The notes under the pieces are model-generated. The model did no database searches. It saw only the letters and a program-made list of their open reading frames with translations, and was not told the DNA's origin. A DNA stretch of 64,000 nucleotides from Kiloniellaceae bacterium (GTDB taxonomy: Bacteria; Pseudomonadota; Alphaproteobacteria; Kiloniellales; Kiloniellaceae). The position numbers were made by a program, and so were the translations under genes. The stretch covers positions 1 through 64,000 of the forward strand of contig JAJFGK010000164.1 of assembly GCA_021776195.1 (NCBI GenBank). The letters run 5' to 3'. Position 1 is the stretch's first letter; the number at the start of each line of letters is the position of its first letter. This document shows positions 1 to 51,213 of the stretch, in pieces.

Positions 1-260
1 CCAATGAGCGTGAATAGGAACCCATATGACCGCGAAGATTTTACCCGCTGGCAAGGCGCGTGGTGCGCCCTGGTGCTTGCGCACCACAAGCAGCGCGGAA
101 CGCAGCCAGCGGGTAAAATCTTCGCGGCCTCCGGTGGGGAAAATCAGTCCCAGGGGTGCGTTCCGGCGCTTGCCCGATGCGATGGCATCGCGCCGCACAC
201 CGCGCCTTCCCCTGGGACTGATTTTCTCCCATCCTATGGGTTCCTATTCACGCTCATTGG
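1..260. repeat. Cloverleaf-like nested inverted repeat, copy 1
   Basis: A perfect 26-bp outer inverted repeat (1-26 with 235-260) encloses two hairpin arms. Arm A has a 22-bp stem, 30-51 with 106-127, and an inner hairpin 60-68/79-87. Arm B has an 18-bp perfect stem, 139-156 with 209-226, continued by a G-T pair and two G-C pairs, plus an inner hairpin 175-180/185-190. The arm loops carry CTGGCAAGGCGCG and GGAACGC motifs that recur in the copy at 49431-49712, which lies in the opposite orientation. The element ends 2 bp from the stop codon of the gene at 263-925. It may extend left of the window. It has no transposase gene and no long reading frame that looks coding. Function is unknown; a structured RNA, a transcription-end structure or a non-autonomous mobile element are all possible. 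Confidence 0.88.
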
Positions 261-4684: not shown

Positions 4685-5578
4685 GTGACAGGACTGCTGG
4701 AAGAGTCGGGACATCTTGCCGATCGCCACGAGACGACCCGCAACGCGGAGACCCCGTCGGCCTCGCCACGGGCCGTCTTTCTTTGCGTCTGCACGGTGCT
4801 TTTCGCGATGGCGCAAGGGATCGCCCTGCCCCCACCCGCGACGGCGGCGGAATTGACGGTCGACGAGGTTAAGGCTGTCCTCGACCGCGCCGCGGAATCG
4901 GGCCTGCCGCCCGATCTGTCGGGACGCGACCTTTCGGGGCTGCACCTGAGTGGGCTCGACTTTCTCAAGGGCAACTTGAGAGGGGCCGACCTGCGGGAGG
5001 TCGACTTTACCAACGCCGACCTGCGCGGTGTCGAGATGCAGGGCGCCAACCTGACCAAGGCGGACCTGTCCGGCGCCAATCTGGACGTCGCCATCCTGCG
5101 CGGAGCCAACCTCGCCGGCGCGAGCCTGCGCAACGTCAGCGCCTTTTCGACAGTCCTGGCGGAAACCGATCTCTCGAATGCGGACCTCCAGGGCGCGCGT
5201 CTGGTCTCCAACCTGAACCGCGCCAATCTGAGAGGCGCCAATCTGGCCAACGCGATCCTGGCCGCCGACATGAAGAACCAGCCGATGGGCCTGATGCGGG
5301 TGTCGCTGCTCAACGCGGACCTCACGGGCGCGAACCTGGAGAACGCCGACCTGGCCATGGGCTTGATGGAGTTTGCCGACTTCACCAACGCCAACCTGAG
5401 CGGCGCCAATCTGATGCAGGTCGAGGCCGCCGGCGCGCGTTTCGACAATGCCAAGCTTGCCGGCGCGGTCTTCCGCAAGGCCGACATCCAGGACGCCCAT
5501 TTCACCGGGGCCAGCGGCATCGACCAGATCATCGACCTCGACCTGGCCAAGAACCGTCACATTGCGATCTTCGACTAA
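4685..5578 (+). CDS. Exported pentapeptide-repeat protein in the xox cluster
   Basis: A 297-residue protein. After a charged N-terminus, a hydrophobic segment around residues 30-57 ending in ATAAE looks like a signal peptide or anchor. From about residue 75 to 290 the chain is made of A(D/N)LXX pentapeptide repeats (GADLREVDFTNADLRGVEM and so on), which fold into a right-handed quadrilateral beta-helix. The GTG at 4685 is preferred because GGGGAG lies about 10 bp upstream; a TTG at 4646 is also in frame. It is followed 13 bp later by a zinc hydrolase of the quinoprotein relay family, so a role in the periplasmic alcohol oxidation system is likely. The molecular function is unknown. Confidence 0.82.
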   Translation: MTGLLEESGHLADRHETTRNAETPSASPRAVFLCVCTVLFAMAQGIALPPPATAAELTVDEVKAVLDRAAESGLPPDLSGRDLSGLHLSGLDFLKGNLRGADLREVDFTNADLRGVEMQGANLTKADLSGANLDVAILRGANLAGASLRNVSAFSTVLAETDLSNADLQGARLVSNLNRANLRGANLANAILAADMKNQPMGLMRVSLLNADLTGANLENADLAMGLMEFADFTNANLSGANLMQVEAAGARFDNAKLAGAVFRKADIQDAHFTGASGIDQIIDLDLAKNRHIAIFD

Positions 5579-7479: not shown

Positions 7480-7863
7480 CTAGAAACAGCGGATCTCCGC
7501 TTCCGCCTGGGCCCGTTTGAGGTCCGCGAAGGCCTCCTTCATTTGCGCATTGGTCCGGAAGATCGAGCCCTTCTCGCCGCCCACGAGGCGCAAACGCATG
7601 ATGGTTTCCGCCTCGACATAGCGCGCGTAGGGCAGGATCGATGCGATGATGTCGATGCTGCAGGAACAGCGCTCCAGGGCCTGCTGGGACTGGCCGTTGC
7701 TCGCCATGCAGGCGAACACGTAGTCGGCCCGCGCGACGGTGGGGTAGTCGTTGGTCAGCGATGGCAGGGCGGCCGCCGTCGCCGCACCCGCCGTCGCCGC
7801 AACCGCCGTCGCCGCAACCGACAGCGCGGTGAATGTTGCGAGCCATGCCAGTAAGCGCATCAT
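7480..7863 (-). CDS. Small exported cysteine-containing protein of unknown function
   Basis: A 127-residue protein with a signal peptide rich in alanine (residues 1-34), partly encoded by a 15-bp tandem repeat. The mature part contains ACMASNGQ, then ERCSCSIDIIASILPY, then a C-terminal cysteine (RCF), so four cysteines that could form two disulfides. AAAGG precedes the start. It is convergent with the SoxYZ-like gene (9 bp apart). I do not recognise a named family; its position suggests a periplasmic accessory of the alcohol oxidation system. Confidence 0.72.
   Translation of the reverse strand: MMRLLAWLATFTALSVAATAVAATAGAATAAALPSLTNDYPTVARADYVFACMASNGQSQQALERCSCSIDIIASILPYARYVEAETIMRLRLVGGEKGSIFRTNAQMKEAFADLKRAQAEAEIRCF
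7775..7819. repeat. 15-bp tandem repeat inside a signal peptide
   Basis: Three copies of GCCGTCGCCGCAMCC at 7775-7789, 7790-7804 and 7805-7819. The unit is five codons long, so gain or loss of a copy keeps the frame and only changes the length of the alanine-rich leader of the small protein at 7480-7863. Confidence 0.85.
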
Positions 7864-44567: not shown

Positions 44568-46640
44568 ATGCGGCGGCCAGCGAATGGGGGCTGGCCGTCG
44601 CTCACCGCTCCCTTTCGAACGGATCGCTGCGGTATGACAACGATCGCCATCGGGCACGCGGTGCGTCCAAGCCGGCTTCGGCCGGGCAACGTCGTGATTT
44701 TGCTGGCGCTGGCCCTAACGGCCTTCTTAATGGCAACGGGCGATTTTCTCCCCTGGGCCGTGACCTATCCCAAGACGTGGGTGGTCCCCGTCGCCCGGGA
44801 GATCACCCTGGCCATGAAATGGCTTTTGGGCGATGCGGATCTCGGATTCTTCACATTCAAAGAATTGACCCGCGGGTTCGGCACCCTTCTCGACGCGCCG
44901 ACACTGTTCCTGAAGGGGCTGCTGGCCACCGGCTTCAAATTCGAGTTCGAAGACGGAGAGACCCTCCGGATTCCGCCGCTCTCGTGGATCGCGATTACCG
45001 CGCTCTTCGTGTCCTTGGGGCTGGCCTTGAAGGACCGCCGGCTGGCCCTTTTCATCGCGCTGGTCTTTATCTATGTCGCATTCCTGGGGCTATGGGAAAG
45101 CACCATGCTGACCTTCGCCTCAATCATCGTCGCGGTCCTGATTGGCGTGGCGACAGGTGTTCTGCTTGGCATTGCCGCCTATCGCTGGAACGGCGTCGAC
45201 CGGATTCTGACCCCGATCTTCGATTTCATGCAGACCATGCCGGTCTTTGCCTATCTGGTTCCGGCGGTGATGCTGTTCGGCTATGGGCCGGCGGCGGCTC
45301 TCGTGGTCACGCTGATCTATGCCATGCCGCCAATGGCGCGTGTGACCCGTTCGGCGCTGTCGCAGGTCGGCAGCGAGATCGTCGAGTACGGCGAGATGGC
45401 CGGCTGCTCCCAGCGTCAACTCATCTGGCGGGTCATGTTGCCGTCGATCCGGCCGCGGCTCATGATCGGGGTCAATCAGGTCATCATGTTGAGCCTCAAC
45501 ATGGTGATCATTGCCTCGATGATCGGTGCGGGCGGTCTTGGCTTCGATGTCTGGCAGGCCTTGAAGGCCTTGCGGATCGGCCAGGGCGCCGAGGCCGGAA
45601 TCGCGATTACCCTGGTCGCCATCGTGCTCGACCGGGTGAGCCAGCGCTACGCGGCGCGGCGCCCGGTCCATGGGGAAGCGCGCGGGGGACCCAAAGCCCG
45701 CTACAAGGTGATGCTCCTCTGCGGCGTGATGGTGCTTGCCCTGACAGCGCTTGGGCACTGGTATCAACCGGCCGCGGCGATCCCCGATGCCTGGACGGTG
45801 ACCACGGGACGCTTTTGGGACAACATCATCGATTGGATCAACATCAACCTCCACGTCTACATAGGCGCGGTCCGCGACGCCTGTTTCATCTACCTCTTGA
45901 AACCGGCCAAGAGTTTCATGCTGGCTCTGCCCTGGCTTGGCGTGGTCGCCGTCGCCACCGCCTGCGGTCTCCGCCTGGGAGGCCCCCGCCTTGCCCTTCT
46001 CTGCGGTGCGCTGATCGCCTTTATCGCCGCGGTGGGCCTTTGGGAAAAGGCGATGATCTCGGTCTATCTGGTCGGTGTCTGCGTCTTTCTGGCGAGTGCC
46101 ATCGGTATTCCGATCGGTGTCCTGGCGGCATCGAACGACCGGGTCCACAGGGTCGTCCAAGTCGTCATCGACACGCTCCAAACCCTTCCGGCATTTGTCT
46201 ACCTGATTCCGGTCATTATGCTTTTCAGCATCGGTGATTTCTCGGCCATGGTCGCCATCGTGCTCTACGCCGTGGTCCCGGCGGTGCGCTATACTGACAA
46301 CGGGCTGCGCCAGGTCCCGGCTCAAGTCGTGGAGGCGGCGACCTCCGTCGGCTGCACGCGCCTGCAGATCCTGCGCCGCGTCTACCTGCCGCTCGCCCTG
46401 CCCGACATCATGCTGGGCATCAACCAGACCCTCATGATGGGCCTATCCATGCTGGTGATCACCGCCTTGGTCGGAACCCGCGATCTGGGCCAGGAAACCC
46501 TGATCGCGCTCTCGAAGGTCGATCCGGGCCGGGGCATCACCGCGGGTATCTGCGTCGCATTCATCGCCATCGTCGCCGACCGATTGATCGGCACCTGGGC
46601 GGCCGCGCGAAAAAAGGAGCTCGGGCTGAATGCCGGGTAG
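44568..46640 (+). CDS. Betaine-type ABC transporter permease with two fused permease domains
   Basis: A 690-residue membrane protein containing two complete binding-protein-dependent permease domains. Each ends in an EAA loop: EYGEMAGCSQRQLIWRVMLPSIRP (about 265-290) and VEAATSVGCTRLQILRRVYLPLALP (about 590-615). ProW-type transporters usually have one domain and work as dimers; tandem forms occur in alphaproteobacteria. ATG 44568 is kept because GGAGG lies just upstream; ATG 44634 is an alternative. The 3' end overlaps glpA by 11 bp. Confidence 0.9.
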   Translation: MRRPANGGWPSLTAPFRTDRCGMTTIAIGHAVRPSRLRPGNVVILLALALTAFLMATGDFLPWAVTYPKTWVVPVAREITLAMKWLLGDADLGFFTFKELTRGFGTLLDAPTLFLKGLLATGFKFEFEDGETLRIPPLSWIAITALFVSLGLALKDRRLALFIALVFIYVAFLGLWESTMLTFASIIVAVLIGVATGVLLGIAAYRWNGVDRILTPIFDFMQTMPVFAYLVPAVMLFGYGPAAALVVTLIYAMPPMARVTRSALSQVGSEIVEYGEMAGCSQRQLIWRVMLPSIRPRLMIGVNQVIMLSLNMVIIASMIGAGGLGFDVWQALKALRIGQGAEAGIAITLVAIVLDRVSQRYAARRPVHGEARGGPKARYKVMLLCGVMVLALTALGHWYQPAAAIPDAWTVTTGRFWDNIIDWININLHVYIGAVRDACFIYLLKPAKSFMLALPWLGVVAVATACGLRLGGPRLALLCGALIAFIAAVGLWEKAMISVYLVGVCVFLASAIGIPIGVLAASNDRVHRVVQVVIDTLQTLPAFVYLIPVIMLFSIGDFSAMVAIVLYAVVPAVRYTDNGLRQVPAQVVEAATSVGCTRLQILRRVYLPLALPDIMLGINQTLMMGLSMLVITALVGTRDLGQETLIALSKVDPGRGITAGICVAFIAIVADRLIGTWAAARKKELGLNAG

Positions 46641-48210
46641 CCGCGAATCTCAGCTCGACGAAAATGCCCCTCATGTGGTCGTGATCGGCGGTGGCGCGAC
46701 CGGCTGTGCCGTCGCCCGGGACCTGATCCTGCGCGGCTTTCGCACCACCCTCGTGGAATACGGCGATCTCGGGTCAGGCACCAGCAGCCGGTTCCATGGC
46801 ATGTTGCAAAGCGGGGCGCGCTACGCCGTCACCGACACGGACTACGCCGGCGAGTGCATGCGCGAACGCAATATCGTTGCCGACCTGGTTCCCGATGTGG
46901 TCGAGCCCCGTGGCGGTCTCTTCGTCGCCCTTCCGGAGGATCCGCCGGACTTCGCCGATCGGTTCCACCAGAGCTGCGAGGCGGCGGGAATCCCCGTGTC
47001 TGAACTGGATCCCGAAGCGGTGATGCGCGACGAGCCGCGGATCAGCCGTCGCGTCCGACGGGCCTTTACGGTCCCCGACGCCACGATCAATCCCTGGCTC
47101 TTGGTCAACGCCCTGGCGACCGATGTCCGGCTGCGCGGCGGCACGATTTTGACTCGTCACCAGGTCACGGAAATCACGGTCAGGGGCGCCGGTGGCGCCA
47201 CGGTTCGCGTGGCTGGCAGGGGAGAGGGGAAGACCCTGGAGGCTGACTGTGTGGTCAACGCGAGCGGCAGTTGGTCGGCGCGAATCGCATCGCTGGTCGG
47301 CCAACAGGTCGAGCTCCAGCTGACCAAGGGCTCGATTATCGTGCTGGCCCACCGGATGGTCCAATCCATTATCAATCGCTGCCGCCCCCCCACAAGCCAC
47401 GACATCATCGTGCCGACCGGCACCGTCAGCCTCTTCGGCACGACCTCGCGGGTCGTGGAGGACCCGGACACGACCCAGGTGACGCCTGAAGAGATTCAAG
47501 AGCTGCTGGAGGGCGCGGAACCCCTTGTCCCGTCCATCCGAGAGTACCGCGCCCTGCGCGCCTGGGCCGGGGTGCGGCCGTTGGTAAAGCCGCCATCATG
47601 GCCGGCGGGCGAGCCCCTGCCCCGACGTCACAAGGTCATCGATCACGGCGATCAGGGACTGGACCGATTCTTTACTGTGTGCGGCGGATCTCTGACCACG
47701 CACCGTGCCATGGCGGAGGATTTGGGCAACCATGTCTGCCGCGGCTTCGGTCTCAACAGACCCAGCGTCTCGGCGACCACGGCGCTTCTCGGTGGGCGGT
47801 CCCAGAAGCCATGGCGGCCGATCGAGCGCTATGAGGAGAGCGAGGCCGAGGTCGCAAGAGAACCAAAGGTCTGCGAATGCGAGCAGGTGTCGGTGGCGAC
47901 GCTCAAGTCCTTGATTGCCGATGAAGGGGTGCGAAATCTCCATGATCTACGGCGACGGTCCCGTCTCGGCTTCGGGCCCTGCCAAGGCACCTTTTGTGCC
48001 AGCCGCGCCGCGAGCCTGCTGGCCGAGGCCGGCGCCGGCAATGCGGCAAGCGACGATCTGGAGCGATTTTGGCTGGAACGGCTCAAGGGCATGGTGCCGA
48101 CGGCCTGGAGCGAACAGGCACGACAGGTGCTGCTGAGCGACTGGGTCGCCCGCGGCCTTCTTGGATTTCGCCCGACGCCTGGCGCGCTGCCCCACGAGGA
48201 CCGGCGATGA
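46630..48210 (+). CDS. glpA: Glycerol-3-phosphate dehydrogenase subunit A (GlpA-like)
   Basis: A 526-residue FAD enzyme. The N-terminal dinucleotide motif is VVVIGGGATGCAVARDL, followed by SSRFHGMLQSGARYAV typical of the GlpA/GlpD family. The C-terminal region holds a BFD-like iron-sulfur domain with CECEQ and GPCQGTFC cysteines, as in the anaerobic GlpA subunit. Together with GlpB and GlpC it would oxidise glycerol-3-phosphate to dihydroxyacetone phosphate and feed quinones. It overlaps the permease by 11 bp and glpB by 4 bp. Confidence 0.9.
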   Translation: MPGSRESQLDENAPHVVVIGGGATGCAVARDLILRGFRTTLVEYGDLGSGTSSRFHGMLQSGARYAVTDTDYAGECMRERNIVADLVPDVVEPRGGLFVALPEDPPDFADRFHQSCEAAGIPVSELDPEAVMRDEPRISRRVRRAFTVPDATINPWLLVNALATDVRLRGGTILTRHQVTEITVRGAGGATVRVAGRGEGKTLEADCVVNASGSWSARIASLVGQQVELQLTKGSIIVLAHRMVQSIINRCRPPTSHDIIVPTGTVSLFGTTSRVVEDPDTTQVTPEEIQELLEGAEPLVPSIREYRALRAWAGVRPLVKPPSWPAGEPLPRRHKVIDHGDQGLDRFFTVCGGSLTTHRAMAEDLGNHVCRGFGLNRPSVSATTALLGGRSQKPWRPIERYEESEAEVAREPKVCECEQVSVATLKSLIADEGVRNLHDLRRRSRLGFGPCQGTFCASRAASLLAEAGAGNAASDDLERFWLERLKGMVPTAWSEQARQVLLSDWVARGLLGFRPTPGALPHEDRR

Positions 48211-49433
48211 GGTCCGATGTGATCGTTGTCGGGGCCGAACTGGACGGCCTGATAGCCGCCGTGATCCTGGCGGAAGCGGGTCATCGGGTGCGCTTGATGG
48301 CCCGAGGCGCGGGCTCTCTCCACTATTCGACGGGCGGAATTCACCTGTTGGGTTACGCAGGCCGTTCCGCCGGGGAAGCCATAGCCGATCCGCTGGCTGC
48401 CATGGATGACCTCGACCAGCGGCATCCCTATCGGCGCATCGGCAGCCAATCGGTGCAACAGGCCCTGGACTGGTATCTGTCCGGCGCGAGCGATGACGGT
48501 CCGACCTATCGGACCAACGGCCACAACGCGCTCGCGGTCACACCGGCAGGGCTGGAAATGCCTTCCTTCGCCCGGTCGGCGCATCAAGCGCTGTTCGACG
48601 ACTTAAAGGGCAAACAAGTTTCGATCGTGGACTTCGCGGGCTATCAGGATCTCCCCGTGGGCCTGTTGCGGGCGGCGTTGACCCAAAGGAACATCGAAGC
48701 AGACATCATTTCCATTGAGGGACCTTCGGCCCGCTTCGAGAGCCTCGGGCTGGCGCGCGCGTTCGATGACCTGAGCGAGCCGGAGGCCTACTTCGGCCGG
48801 CTGAAAGGTCGACTGGCCCCCGCGAGCGAGGTCGTCCTCTTTCCGGCCGTTCTTGGTCTCGCGCGTCATCGCGATGTCCTGCGGGCGGCGGAGCAGGCGC
48901 TCGCTGTGCGCTGCCTCGAGGTCCCGACTCTGCCGCCCAGTGTCCCGGGACTCCGCCTGCATCGCCACCTCATGAGGATCTTGCGGCGCAAGGGCGTCGC
49001 TCTCCATCTCGGCGCCCGGCTGCGCGGCACGGCCAGTAGCGGGGCCCGAGTGGAGGCGGTCTATGACGAAGGCAACAGAGACTACCGGGCTGCGGCCTTC
49101 ATCCTGGCGAGCGGCGGCGTCCTGATGGGGGGACTGGAGGTCAGCCCCGCCGGCAGCGTCACCGAGCCCAATTTCGGTCTGGCGGTGCACCAGACCGGCC
49201 CCCTCGCTGTTGGCGCGGTCGAGCCGACGCTCGATGCCCTGCACGAGACGGGAGTCGAGACGGATCTCCAGCTGCGCCCACTGGCTGAGAACGAGCCTCG
49301 GTTCGAGAACCTCTTTGTCACCGGCACGACTCTGGCCCACTGGCATCCGACCCGCGAGGCATCGTCGGAGGGGGTCGCTATCGCCACCGGCTGGCGGGCG
49401 GCACAAGAGGTCCGCAAGGTGTTGGAGGTCTAG
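48207..49433 (+). CDS. glpB: Glycerol-3-phosphate dehydrogenase subunit B (GlpB-like)
   Basis: A 408-residue flavoprotein-like subunit starting MRSDVIVVGAELDGLIAAVILAEAGHRV; the dinucleotide motif is altered (GAELDG in place of GAGLAG), which is common in GlpB. The central part has PAVLGLARH and the end has FVTGTTLAHWHPTREASSEGVAIATGW, both typical. It should link GlpA to the membrane subunit GlpC. Its stop codon (TAG, 49431-49433) is the first three bases of the second cloverleaf repeat. Confidence 0.87.
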   Translation: MRSDVIVVGAELDGLIAAVILAEAGHRVRLMARGAGSLHYSTGGIHLLGYAGRSAGEAIADPLAAMDDLDQRHPYRRIGSQSVQQALDWYLSGASDDGPTYRTNGHNALAVTPAGLEMPSFARSAHQALFDDLKGKQVSIVDFAGYQDLPVGLLRAALTQRNIEADIISIEGPSARFESLGLARAFDDLSEPEAYFGRLKGRLAPASEVVLFPAVLGLARHRDVLRAAEQALAVRCLEVPTLPPSVPGLRLHRHLMRILRRKGVALHLGARLRGTASSGARVEAVYDEGNRDYRAAAFILASGGVLMGGLEVSPAGSVTEPNFGLAVHQTGPLAVGAVEPTLDALHETGVETDLQLRPLAENEPRFENLFVTGTTLAHWHPTREASSEGVAIATGWRAAQEVRKVLEV

Positions 49434-49712
49434 AGCACTTTCAATGAGTAAGGAGCCATTTGATGGGCCTTGGAAGCTCACTCGGGAAGGCGCGGTAAGC
49501 AGCGCGATGCTATCGCATCGGGCAAGTGCCGGAACGCACCCCCCGATGTCGAGACTGGGGAGCTTCCAAGGCCCACCGAAGGCCGGGTTCTTTTGCCCCC
49601 TGGCCGCGTTCCGCTCCTTGGCCGATGCTCACGCATCGCCCTGCAAAGCGCGCCTTGCCAGGGGGCAAAATAGTCCCGGTCAAATGACCCCTTACTCATT
49701 GAAAGTGCTCTA
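49431..49712. repeat. Cloverleaf-like nested inverted repeat, copy 2
   Basis: The outer stem is 33 bp (49431-49463 with 49680-49712) with two mismatched positions (49454/49689 and 49456/49687). Arm B has a 16-bp perfect stem, 49464-49479 with 49560-49575, and an inner hairpin 49505-49510/49515-49520. Arm A has a 14-bp stem, 49591-49604 with 49657-49670, prolonged by CCGGG 49583-49587 with 49675-49679, and an inner hairpin 49623-49628/49633-49638. On its minus strand it aligns with the plus strand of copy 1 (1-260): loops and linker are conserved, stem sequences differ but pair. It lies between glpB and the kinase gene, starting at the glpB stop codon and ending 4 bp before the kinase ATG. Confidence 0.9.
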
Positions 49713-49716
49713 GACC

Positions 49717-51213
49717 ATGGAAAGCGGTGTCTTTATCGGGATCGATCATGGCGGCACCACGACCACGGCGCTGGTTTATGATCCGGAAGGCCGGAGAAAG
49801 CGCGCCTCGGTTTCCGTTCCCATGCCCAAGCGGACGCCAGCAATCGGATGGGTCGAGCACGACCCCGAGGATTTCCTGACGTCCGGCAACCAAGCCGCCC
49901 GCCTGGCGCTCGCCAAGGCGGGGCTCGCCTGGCGCGACGTGGCCGCCATCGGGATTGCCAATCAAGGCGAGACCAGCATGGCCTGGTCCAGCCGAACAGG
50001 GGGACCGCTGGGACCGGCGATTTCCTGGGAGGACCGACGCACGGCGGACCTCTGTGCTTGCCTGGCGGACCAGGGCGTCGACCGGCTGATACGCGAGCGC
50101 ACCGGCATCCATCTCGATCCCTATTTCTCCGCCTCCAAGTTCAAGTGGTTGCTGGAGAACGATCCGATGGTCAAGACTACCCTCAACAAGGGCGGGGTCC
50201 GGCTGGGCGGCACCGACAGCTACGTCATCCACCGGCTGACCGGCGGTGCGGTCCATGCCACCAACGCGGCCACGGCCTCGCGGACCGCGCTGTTCAACCT
50301 GAAAGGCGTCCATTGGGACCGTGACCTCCTGGAGGCCTTTGCCCTGAGCCAGGATCAGATGCCGGAGATCCGTCCGACCACGGGAGACTTCGGACTGATC
50401 CGCCACCCAGCCGTCGACAGCCCTTCGGTCCGCATCACCGCGGATGCCGTGGACGCCCATGCCGCGCTCTTCGCGCAGGGCTGCTGGGATGCAACCACGG
50501 TCAAGGCGACCTATGGCACGGGCGCCTTTATCGAAGTCAACACCGGCCCCGATCCGGTCGTGCCTGATGGCAAGTTGCCGGTGTTTGTCGCCTGGGATCT
50601 GGGCGGCAGGCTCGACTACACGCTGGAGGGCGGTGTCTTTTCGGTCGGTGCGGCGATCGATTGGATGGTGCGCTCGGGACTGCTGCCATCGGCCCGGGAC
50701 ACGGCCGCCCTGGCCGAATCCGTGCCCGACAGCGGCGGCGTGGCGGTGGTGCCTTGTTTTACCGGGCTCTCGGCGCCTCATTGGCAATCGAGTGCCCGGG
50801 CGGCAATCCTCGGGCTTGGTCTGGACACCACGACCGGCCATATCGCGCGGGCATTGCTCGATGGCATCGCCTTTCGCTGCGCCGAGGTGATCGAGGCCTT
50901 GAGCGAAAGGCTCGGCGGTACAATCACGCTGGTGAAGGCCGACGGCGGGCCGACAGGCAATGGCTATCTCATGCAGCGACAGGCCGACCTCCTGGACATG
51001 CCGGTCGCGGTCTCCCAGGAAGCCGACATGACAGCCCTGGGTGCTGCCCTGCTCGCGGCAATCGGAGCCGGCAGCCTGACCCTCGATGACGTTCGGGCCC
51101 AGAAACAAGCCACCATCGTCTACGAGCCGCAACTGGGCGCCGACGAGCGGGCCTCGCTTTGGGCCTCGTGGCGGCGGTCCATGGCGCTGATCGCCGAGCA
51201 GGGTGCCCCATGA
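49717..51213 (+). CDS. glpK: FGGY-family kinase, glycerol kinase-like
   Basis: A 498-residue sugar kinase. The phosphate loop is FIGIDHGGTTTTALVYD, then IGIANQGETSMAW and SWEDRRTADLC (the WxDxR motif), GGTDSYVIHRLTGG, the ATYGTGAFIEVN adenosine region and LVKADGGPTGNGYLMQRQADLL. This set fits glycerol kinase and close relatives; the substrate is inferred from the glpABC neighbours. The ATG comes only 4 bp after the cloverleaf repeat, so there is no normal ribosome-binding site apart from the GAAAGTG at the end of the repeat. Confidence 0.86.
   Translation: MESGVFIGIDHGGTTTTALVYDPEGRRKRASVSVPMPKRTPAIGWVEHDPEDFLTSGNQAARLALAKAGLAWRDVAAIGIANQGETSMAWSSRTGGPLGPAISWEDRRTADLCACLADQGVDRLIRERTGIHLDPYFSASKFKWLLENDPMVKTTLNKGGVRLGGTDSYVIHRLTGGAVHATNAATASRTALFNLKGVHWDRDLLEAFALSQDQMPEIRPTTGDFGLIRHPAVDSPSVRITADAVDAHAALFAQGCWDATTVKATYGTGAFIEVNTGPDPVVPDGKLPVFVAWDLGGRLDYTLEGGVFSVGAAIDWMVRSGLLPSARDTAALAESVPDSGGVAVVPCFTGLSAPHWQSSARAAILGLGLDTTTGHIARALLDGIAFRCAEVIEALSERLGGTITLVKADGGPTGNGYLMQRQADLLDMPVAVSQEADMTALGAALLAAIGAGSLTLDDVRAQKQATIVYEPQLGADERASLWASWRRSMALIAEQGAP

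Follow-up and report, generated by a model that had tools for sequence, protein, structure and literature searches.

The window analysed here, that is, the whole stretch of 64,000 nucleotides from a Kiloniellaceae bacterium, holds two copies of a cloverleaf-like DNA element, which raises the question of what this element is and why its fold is kept. We find that the copies belong to a family with a covarying three-stem fold that inserts with duplication of its target. The element is very probably MITE-like, about 260 bp long and mobile, with a fold-bearing inside under constraint and ends that have been exchanged, and it occurs in many proteobacterial genomes. Its two terminal inverted repeats would pair as an outer stem around two inverted copies of one hairpin unit.

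The two copies in the window

Copy 1 lies on the forward strand and ends at position 262. It has class I ends (..CCAA to TTGGTA), and its first two bases, inferred to be TA, precede the window, so that the element is slightly larger at both sides than the bounds 1-260 given by the sequence-only reading. The 5' side of the outer stem, which is the terminal inverted repeat, spans 1-29 and is 97% complementary to the 3' side at 232-260. Arm A follows with a stem at 30-52, 100% complementary to 105-127, around a core of 51 bases at 53-103 that carries the AAGGCGCG/CGGAACGC pair in the forward direction. The inter-arm linker GGCCTCCGGTGGG is found at 126-138. The stem of arm B at 136-156 is 95% complementary to 209-229, and its core of 51 bases at 158-208 is the arm A unit reversed, with the AAGGCGCG/CGGAACGC pair on the reverse strand. 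Copy 1 is followed by a TCA of the TNA type at 263-265, which is also the stop codon of a minus-strand ORF (263-1480) touched by the copy; the left flank lies outside the window.

Copy 2 is an element of 278 bp on the reverse strand at 49433-49710 with class II ends (GAGC..GCTC). It sits between two TA dinucleotides (49431-49432 and 49711-49712) of the target duplication type, and these flanks had been counted as part of the element when it was placed at 49431-49712. Its outer stem (49433-49463 with 49680-49710) lies inside a 37-nt pair at 49427-49463 and 49680-49716 with 95% complementarity. The arm A core is on the reverse strand at 49606-49656, with a 100% complementary stem (49591-49604 and 49657-49670), and the arm B core on the forward strand at 49487-49537, with a 90% complementary stem (49459-49479 and 49560-49580). 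The linker GGCCTTCGGTGGG lies on the reverse strand at 49572-49584. Copy 2 overlaps the end of an ORF at 47994-49433, whose TAG stop is 49431-49433.

Folded as single-stranded DNA, copy 1 reaches -113.7 kcal/mol (z -15.97) and copy 2 reaches -105.6 kcal/mol (z -13.37), energies that none of 200 shuffles attained for either copy. Together with the complementarity of 90-100%, this confirms the outer stem and two arms that had been proposed for both copies. The motifs CTGGCAAGGCGCG, GGTGCGTTCCGGC and CTTGCCCGATGCGAT as well as the linker GGCCTYCGGTGGG each occur exactly once per window strand, which means once per copy, as expected from the claim that loop motifs and linker are common to both. 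The short motif CGGAACGC is not confined to the copies and occurs eight times in the whole window.

The two arms are one and the same unit, AAGGCGCG - hairpin - CGGAACGC, inverted in one arm relative to the other and 51 bases long in all four cases. Read on the opposite strand, the loop motifs of arm B largely match those of arm A, and arm B of copy 1 is 92% identical to that of copy 2 across 59 bases. An exact AAGGCGCG/CGGAACGC pair within 15-70 bases is found nowhere in the window outside the four units. When an arm-B covariance model was searched against the window with filters off, the top four matches were the four arms with E-values of 2.3e-12 or lower, followed by a match with an E-value of 0.017.

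Other features of the window were recorded alongside. At 44568-51213 Pfam annotates a transporter, two FAD-dependent oxidoreductases and an FGGY kinase, all in one direction, which looks like a cluster for glycerol or sugar utilisation; copy 2 sits between the final oxidoreductase and the FGGY kinase. Degenerate repeats with a period of 15 bases at 4967-5413 possibly belong to a gene for a pentapeptide-repeat protein, and a short tandem repeat with a 15-base unit (CCGCCGTCGCCGCAA) is present at 7773-7827.

Spread, insertion and ends of the family

The sequence-only reading had described a family of two members, and the family turned out to be widespread, with many genomes carrying many copies. 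At least 120 loci were returned when genome contigs were scanned with a pattern, and their titles name Alphaproteobacteria or unspecified proteobacteria except for one metagenome-assembled genome labelled Bacteroidetes. Among the matches listed, an outer stem was definable in 91 candidates, of which 79 were kept as different and oriented elements; the others were dropped for a weak orientation score, for their length or as identical copies. The arm-B covariance model, built from 42 sequences (43 reduced to 42 for alignment A1), finds 2-120 matches per genome in all 16 source genomes, with 150 candidates scored per genome. As arm A is hit by the model as well, these are counts of matches and not of elements.

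In the wider searches a match was present in at least 27 of the 289 genomes taken from the class and at least 20 of the 299 taken from the phylum, the genome of the query (G006) being included in both; the stricter filters used make these numbers lower bounds. The class search also gave weaker matches, and of 20 loci taken from these, 16 have an outer stem that encloses 263-279 bp, L197 and L201 have a shorter outer stem, and L191 and L192 have none. Among 20 loci of the phylum search, the outer stem bounds 249-287 bp in 18 and is missing in L246 and L257, and two or more inner stems are listed in 13 of the 18. The 16S sequence could be matched in four of the 20 genomes, with Cupriavidus (92.1%) and Niveibacterium (92.7%) as best plasmid-record matches of G464 and G511. 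We take both genera to be Betaproteobacteria, which would place these two genomes near that class.

Plasmid records were searched by blast with copy 1, which gave no match, and with copy 2, which matched four records. Two of these were inspected; one holds a full-size relative on a plasmid of Agrobacterium sp. MA01 and the match on a Novosphingobium plasmid was taken as chance. With the Agrobacterium copy as query, 12 plasmid records were matched, and one of three further loci fetched from these is a shortened class I form (L018). Viral sequences were scanned with two patterns; the first gave five stretches judged by eye as chance matches in coding DNA and the second gave ten, two of which are real elements (L008 and L015). 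A variable-gap pattern matched in none of nine genomes, but its gap of 18-24 is longer than the gap in the elements, so that this result carries no information. Elements of Nitratireductor, Hoeflea and Roseibium (L044, L099, L101, L119 and L129) form a longer subtype of about 300 bp, in which the inter-arm linker is enlarged. Contigs often end inside or at an element, as the window does (other examples are L034, L036, L050, L066, L071, L117 and L126). Since these repeats seem to break assemblies in this way, copy numbers counted in draft genomes are probably too low.

The transposable nature of the elements, with their terminal inverted repeats and target duplications, was overlooked in the earlier description. 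The insertion site on the MA01 plasmid is empty in plasmids of strain RAC06 (97.4% identical apart from the element) and R. rosettiformans (91.2% identical), and the junctions show TACCAA...TTGGTA inserted with a duplicated TGA of 3 bp. This exact empty site is one locus, seen in two relatives, and a second empty site in Rhizobium is too diverged for reading the duplication. Recent spread is indicated by another genome of the genus to which Rhizobium sp. NFR03 belongs, where three copies share 95-96% identity with the NFR03 copy.

The ends fall into two main classes, and neither end-class search fits four of the 79 elements. The 43 class I elements (TACCAA..TTGGTA) have TNA on both flanks in 33 cases, and in 24 cases the flanking triplets are identical, all of them TNA, compared with a random expectation of about 0.7. 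The 32 class II elements (GAGC..GCTC) have TA on both sides in 23 cases, with C or T before the TA in 30 and G or A after it in 29. Some of the flanks that miss these patterns are due to misplaced anchors (e.g. L028, L077 and L093). The features of MITEs that we looked for are thus present: terminal inverted repeats, target-site duplication, empty sites, multiple copies and a length too short for a transposase gene. The target duplications argue for a DDE transposase rather than for an attC site.

Besides the usual spacing of about 261 bp, class I ends are found closer together. Among the fetched loci there are ten cases with ends 42-52 bp apart, which consist of the outer palindrome alone, and three loci, one of them counted twice, with ends 158 bp apart and a single arm. 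We infer that these short-spaced forms are what deletions left behind, since short direct repeats are visible by eye at the borders of the missing part. The palindromes of 42-52 bp (L163-L171, L173 and L176) are mostly flanked by TNA and lie at separate sites in rhizobial genomes.

Transposases with corresponding ends were searched in the same genomes. The IS630 transposase domain (Pfam: PF13358) was found at eight loci in four of five genomes, and at four of these the match is enclosed by (Y)TAGAGC ends with a spacing of about 1.05-1.1 kb (L203 and L207 at about 971-2028, L205 at 1369-2467 and L204 at 1-1056). At the other four loci no pair of ends was found, some being cut by a contig end. 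The genome G005 has 29 model matches, yet no PF13358 match at an E-value of 1e-8. Since PF13358 matches lie between (Y)TAGAGC ends in the same genomes, class II elements probably borrow IS630 transposases, and there is fair support from this likeness of ends for a putative movement in trans by resident members of that family. The marks of an IS630-mobilised MITE, shared ends and TA duplication, are found for class II only (at the four of eight loci) and not for class I.

For class I, no transposase with TACCAA ends was found among the loci of PF01609 (14), PF13586 (14), PF13359 (2) and PF13340 (28), and no long-spaced pair of class I ends encloses a transposase in 1.14 Mb of loci. Movement of class I by a putative TNA-duplicating transposase also has fair support. 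One end of a phylum-search element (L250), TAGGGTCCGTACTCACTA, agrees by eye in 16 of 18 with TAGGGTCCGGACTCATTA, which is one end of an inverted repeat enclosing a DUF4096 (Pfam: PF13340) transposase match in another genome (L280). This likeness is a hint of a possible third kind of end. Cloverleaf elements with further ends, e.g. TAGTGTCCTG or CTAATACC, were also seen (L242-L245, L254 and L255), in genomes of about 1.9-2.5 Mb.

Both end classes are present in the window, class I in copy 1 and class II in copy 2. We built a tree from the insides only, using alignment columns 36-264 of 53 labelled elements; L008 was omitted for want of an end label and copy 1 was labelled by hand. End class must change at least seven times on this tree (6-7 in bootstraps) compared with a mean of 17.2 after shuffling, and at least three changes are forced by well-supported branches. 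Transposon ends have therefore been exchanged repeatedly around a kept inside, and the cargo outlives its ends. The exchange could proceed by stepwise change of the ends or by recombination between elements in one cell. As the ends are exchanged and the folded inside is kept, the fold seems to be what is preserved.

Constraint on the fold and its possible role

The 79 elements were restricted to 67 by orientation and a length of 255-275, which excludes the subtype of about 300 bp, and 54 of these form alignment A2; the remaining 13 were left out by eye as near-copies or edge cases. In the 54 elements 93.3% of the cells of 93 pairs are paired, compared with 70.1% in shuffles, and in 77 of the 93 pairs at least one sequence has both partners changed. 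Covariation scores 0.604, compared with 0.177 for shuffled and at most 0.116 for slid alignments. Shuffles and covariation together rule out a chance origin of the fold.

Because the structure was derived from the same sequences, we additionally ran a phylogeny-aware null as a substitute for R-scape, in which the parsimony substitutions of each column are thrown again on the tree in 20 simulated alignments. At an E-value of 0.05, 42 column pairs covary above this null; 36 of them belong to the fold, and the number rises to 40 if a shift of one column is allowed. The 40 are divided into 19 in the outer stem, 11 in arm A and 10 in arm B, which leaves two pairs outside the fold, at columns 198-229 and 76-96. 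A transposon end makes up part of the outer stem, and this part would be complementary for that reason alone. Across 94 representative units the consensus of the core is about AAGGCGCG nnn CGC [hairpin] ... CGCAACG. The sequence-only reading had seen conserved cores and pair-preserving stem change as the mark of constraint on a folded nucleic acid, and the covariation bears this out; the model, wider search and covariation check it had proposed were all passed, the last with our home-made substitute for R-scape.

The inside may, weakly, have been kept through its action as a folded single strand. With the two units inverted, either strand shows one forward unit, so that such an action would be independent of the orientation of insertion. 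We tentatively favour two ways in which a factor recognising the core AAGGCGCG...CGCAACG might act on the unit, either in read-through transcripts or in folded single-stranded DNA during transposition or replication; neither of them reaches the level of a probable explanation.

That the fold serves transposition itself is plausible and is likewise held tentatively. The arms, folded in single-stranded or supercoiled DNA, would bring the ends into contact or be bound by a host factor, and elements that fold would move more. The steady length fits this, as 42 of the 43 class I elements measure 257-264 bp (the exception, L028 with 272 bp, has a misplaced anchor) and 18 of the 20 phylum-search loci stay within the range given above despite differing stems and ends. 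The inverted arrangement of the units and the persistence of the fold while ends change fit as well. Against this, ordinary MITEs are not known to need more than their terminal repeats for movement, the subtype of about 300 bp exists, and we know of no factor that binds the folded arms.

A structured RNA, cis-acting or small, is possible but somewhat doubtful. Here the fold of a transcript would be selected, for example in mRNA processing or protection, and transposases would only spread it. Conserved cores with pair-preserving stems agree with this, and so do the mismatches in the arms, which in the frame of the unit comprise 46 G.T and 20 A.C (19 to 9 in arm A and 27 to 11 in arm B); this count is post-hoc and made on related sequences, and it is a hint only, as fixed mismatches beside the core distort strand counts. 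The G.T excess is a lead and, if real, would fit a folded single strand whose forward unit is what counts, the inverted pair supplying one such unit on each strand. The outer stem has no such wobble preference (26 G.T and 33 A.C), which does not suggest selection of that stem as RNA. Rfam gave no match for the window at the gathering score nor for four related loci up to an E-value of 1, in line with the statement that no named family has this layout, and searches for promoters and terminators gave no promoter match and no noteworthy terminator match.

The positions of the elements speak against the RNA reading too. Relative to co-directional genes their orientation is unbiased (12 of 30), and 30 of 55 elements lie between co-directional genes, which is not above the background of 126 of 207 gaps. 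Convergent gaps hold 19 of the 55 elements and make up 54 of the 207 background gaps. Placement, called with crude ORFs on the 79 elements after 24 were set aside (13 at an edge and 11 inside an ORF), is not clearly different from that of all gaps in the same stretches. Stop codons are overlapped by 10 of 21 class I elements, compared with 4.2 expected from the available sites (for 20 elements, one having no countable site), and by 9 of 15 class II elements, compared with 9.6 expected. In this count 20 of 61 elements, including copy 2 of the window, were set aside for lying inside a crude ORF call, and five class I elements without a facing gene end were omitted. The excess of class I at stop codons is modest at most.

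It is unlikely that pairing is kept by mutation alone, with template switching in replication correcting quasi-palindromes and only the cores being selected. In arm B, where 19 of 32 predicted pairs have changed on both sides, both partners have changed in 238 cells and a single partner in 18, as template switching would lead us to expect, although cells count sequences and not events. The missing wobble preference of the outer stem points the same way. Against this, single changes make up nearly all of what separates close pairs (2-12 differences), and both-sided changes accumulate with divergence; we use only this trend, as some pairs were counted twice through one-base trimming and the fold permits G.T and not A.C. 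Template switching also leaves three stems of steady length unexplained.

Beyond the MITE-like element itself, we see as a real possibility, though short of a probable one, a phylum-wide selfish structured nucleic acid, in which the three-way fold is inherited and takes the ends of active transposons (IS630-type, TNA-type and possibly IS5-type). If true, this would reverse the usual picture of a MITE as the decayed relic of one transposon.

Comparison with known repeats

The usual view of bacterial MITEs is that of shrunken transposons with a meaningless inside. In this family it is the inside that is conserved, with covariation like that which defines structured RNAs, and the ends can be exchanged. 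This offers a direct way of testing whether small repeats carry selected structure. The natural stems are unusually varied, many positions showing each of the four Watson-Crick pair types. As the elements resemble a structured RNA family of many copies, they could mislead RNA-discovery pipelines, besides the practical effect that they seem to have on assemblies.

A full-text search for six motif sequences across 5.39 million papers gave three whose titles are unrelated, and the literature on bacterial MITEs, on palindromic or branched repeats and on rhizobial repeats did not lead us to recognise the family; in both searches subscription papers were mostly outside the scope. The family shows the testable features of MITEs. 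The RIME and ABC mosaic repeats of rhizobia are similar in being palindromic and intergenic.

REP and CGTC-tagged palindromes are also hairpins, often in dimers, and occur in proteobacteria and other phyla; by description they differ in having units of 20-40 bp and, for CGTC, stems of 8-9 bp (PMC3733652). The CIR repeats of Caulobacter and Brucella share with our elements the alphaproteobacterial hosts, the intergenic position and two hairpin arms with a linker, whereas they are described there as about 110 bp long, without terminal repeats and defined by GANTC (PMC2229807), a motif that is missing from 37 of the 67 elements. Judged by this description, it is very improbable that the elements are CIR (Chen and Shapiro) or some other alphaproteobacterial repeat already on record.

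Correia/NEMIS of Neisseria and ERIC of enterobacteria are MITE-like as well, with TA termini and transcripts that form long stem-loops, but as described in the same source their stem-loop is built from the two ends and has no arms (PMC2229807). RUP of Streptococcus pneumoniae, a repeat of 107 bp with TA ends, is proposed to use the transposase of IS630-Spn1 (PMC2229807). It resembles our elements as a small non-coding repeat with TA at its ends, which resemble those of a resident IS630 element. As far as this source describes it, RUP is a single repeat family of 107 bp, while the elements reported here measure about 257-306 bp and combine three stems, conserved inverted units and several types of ends on a common inside.
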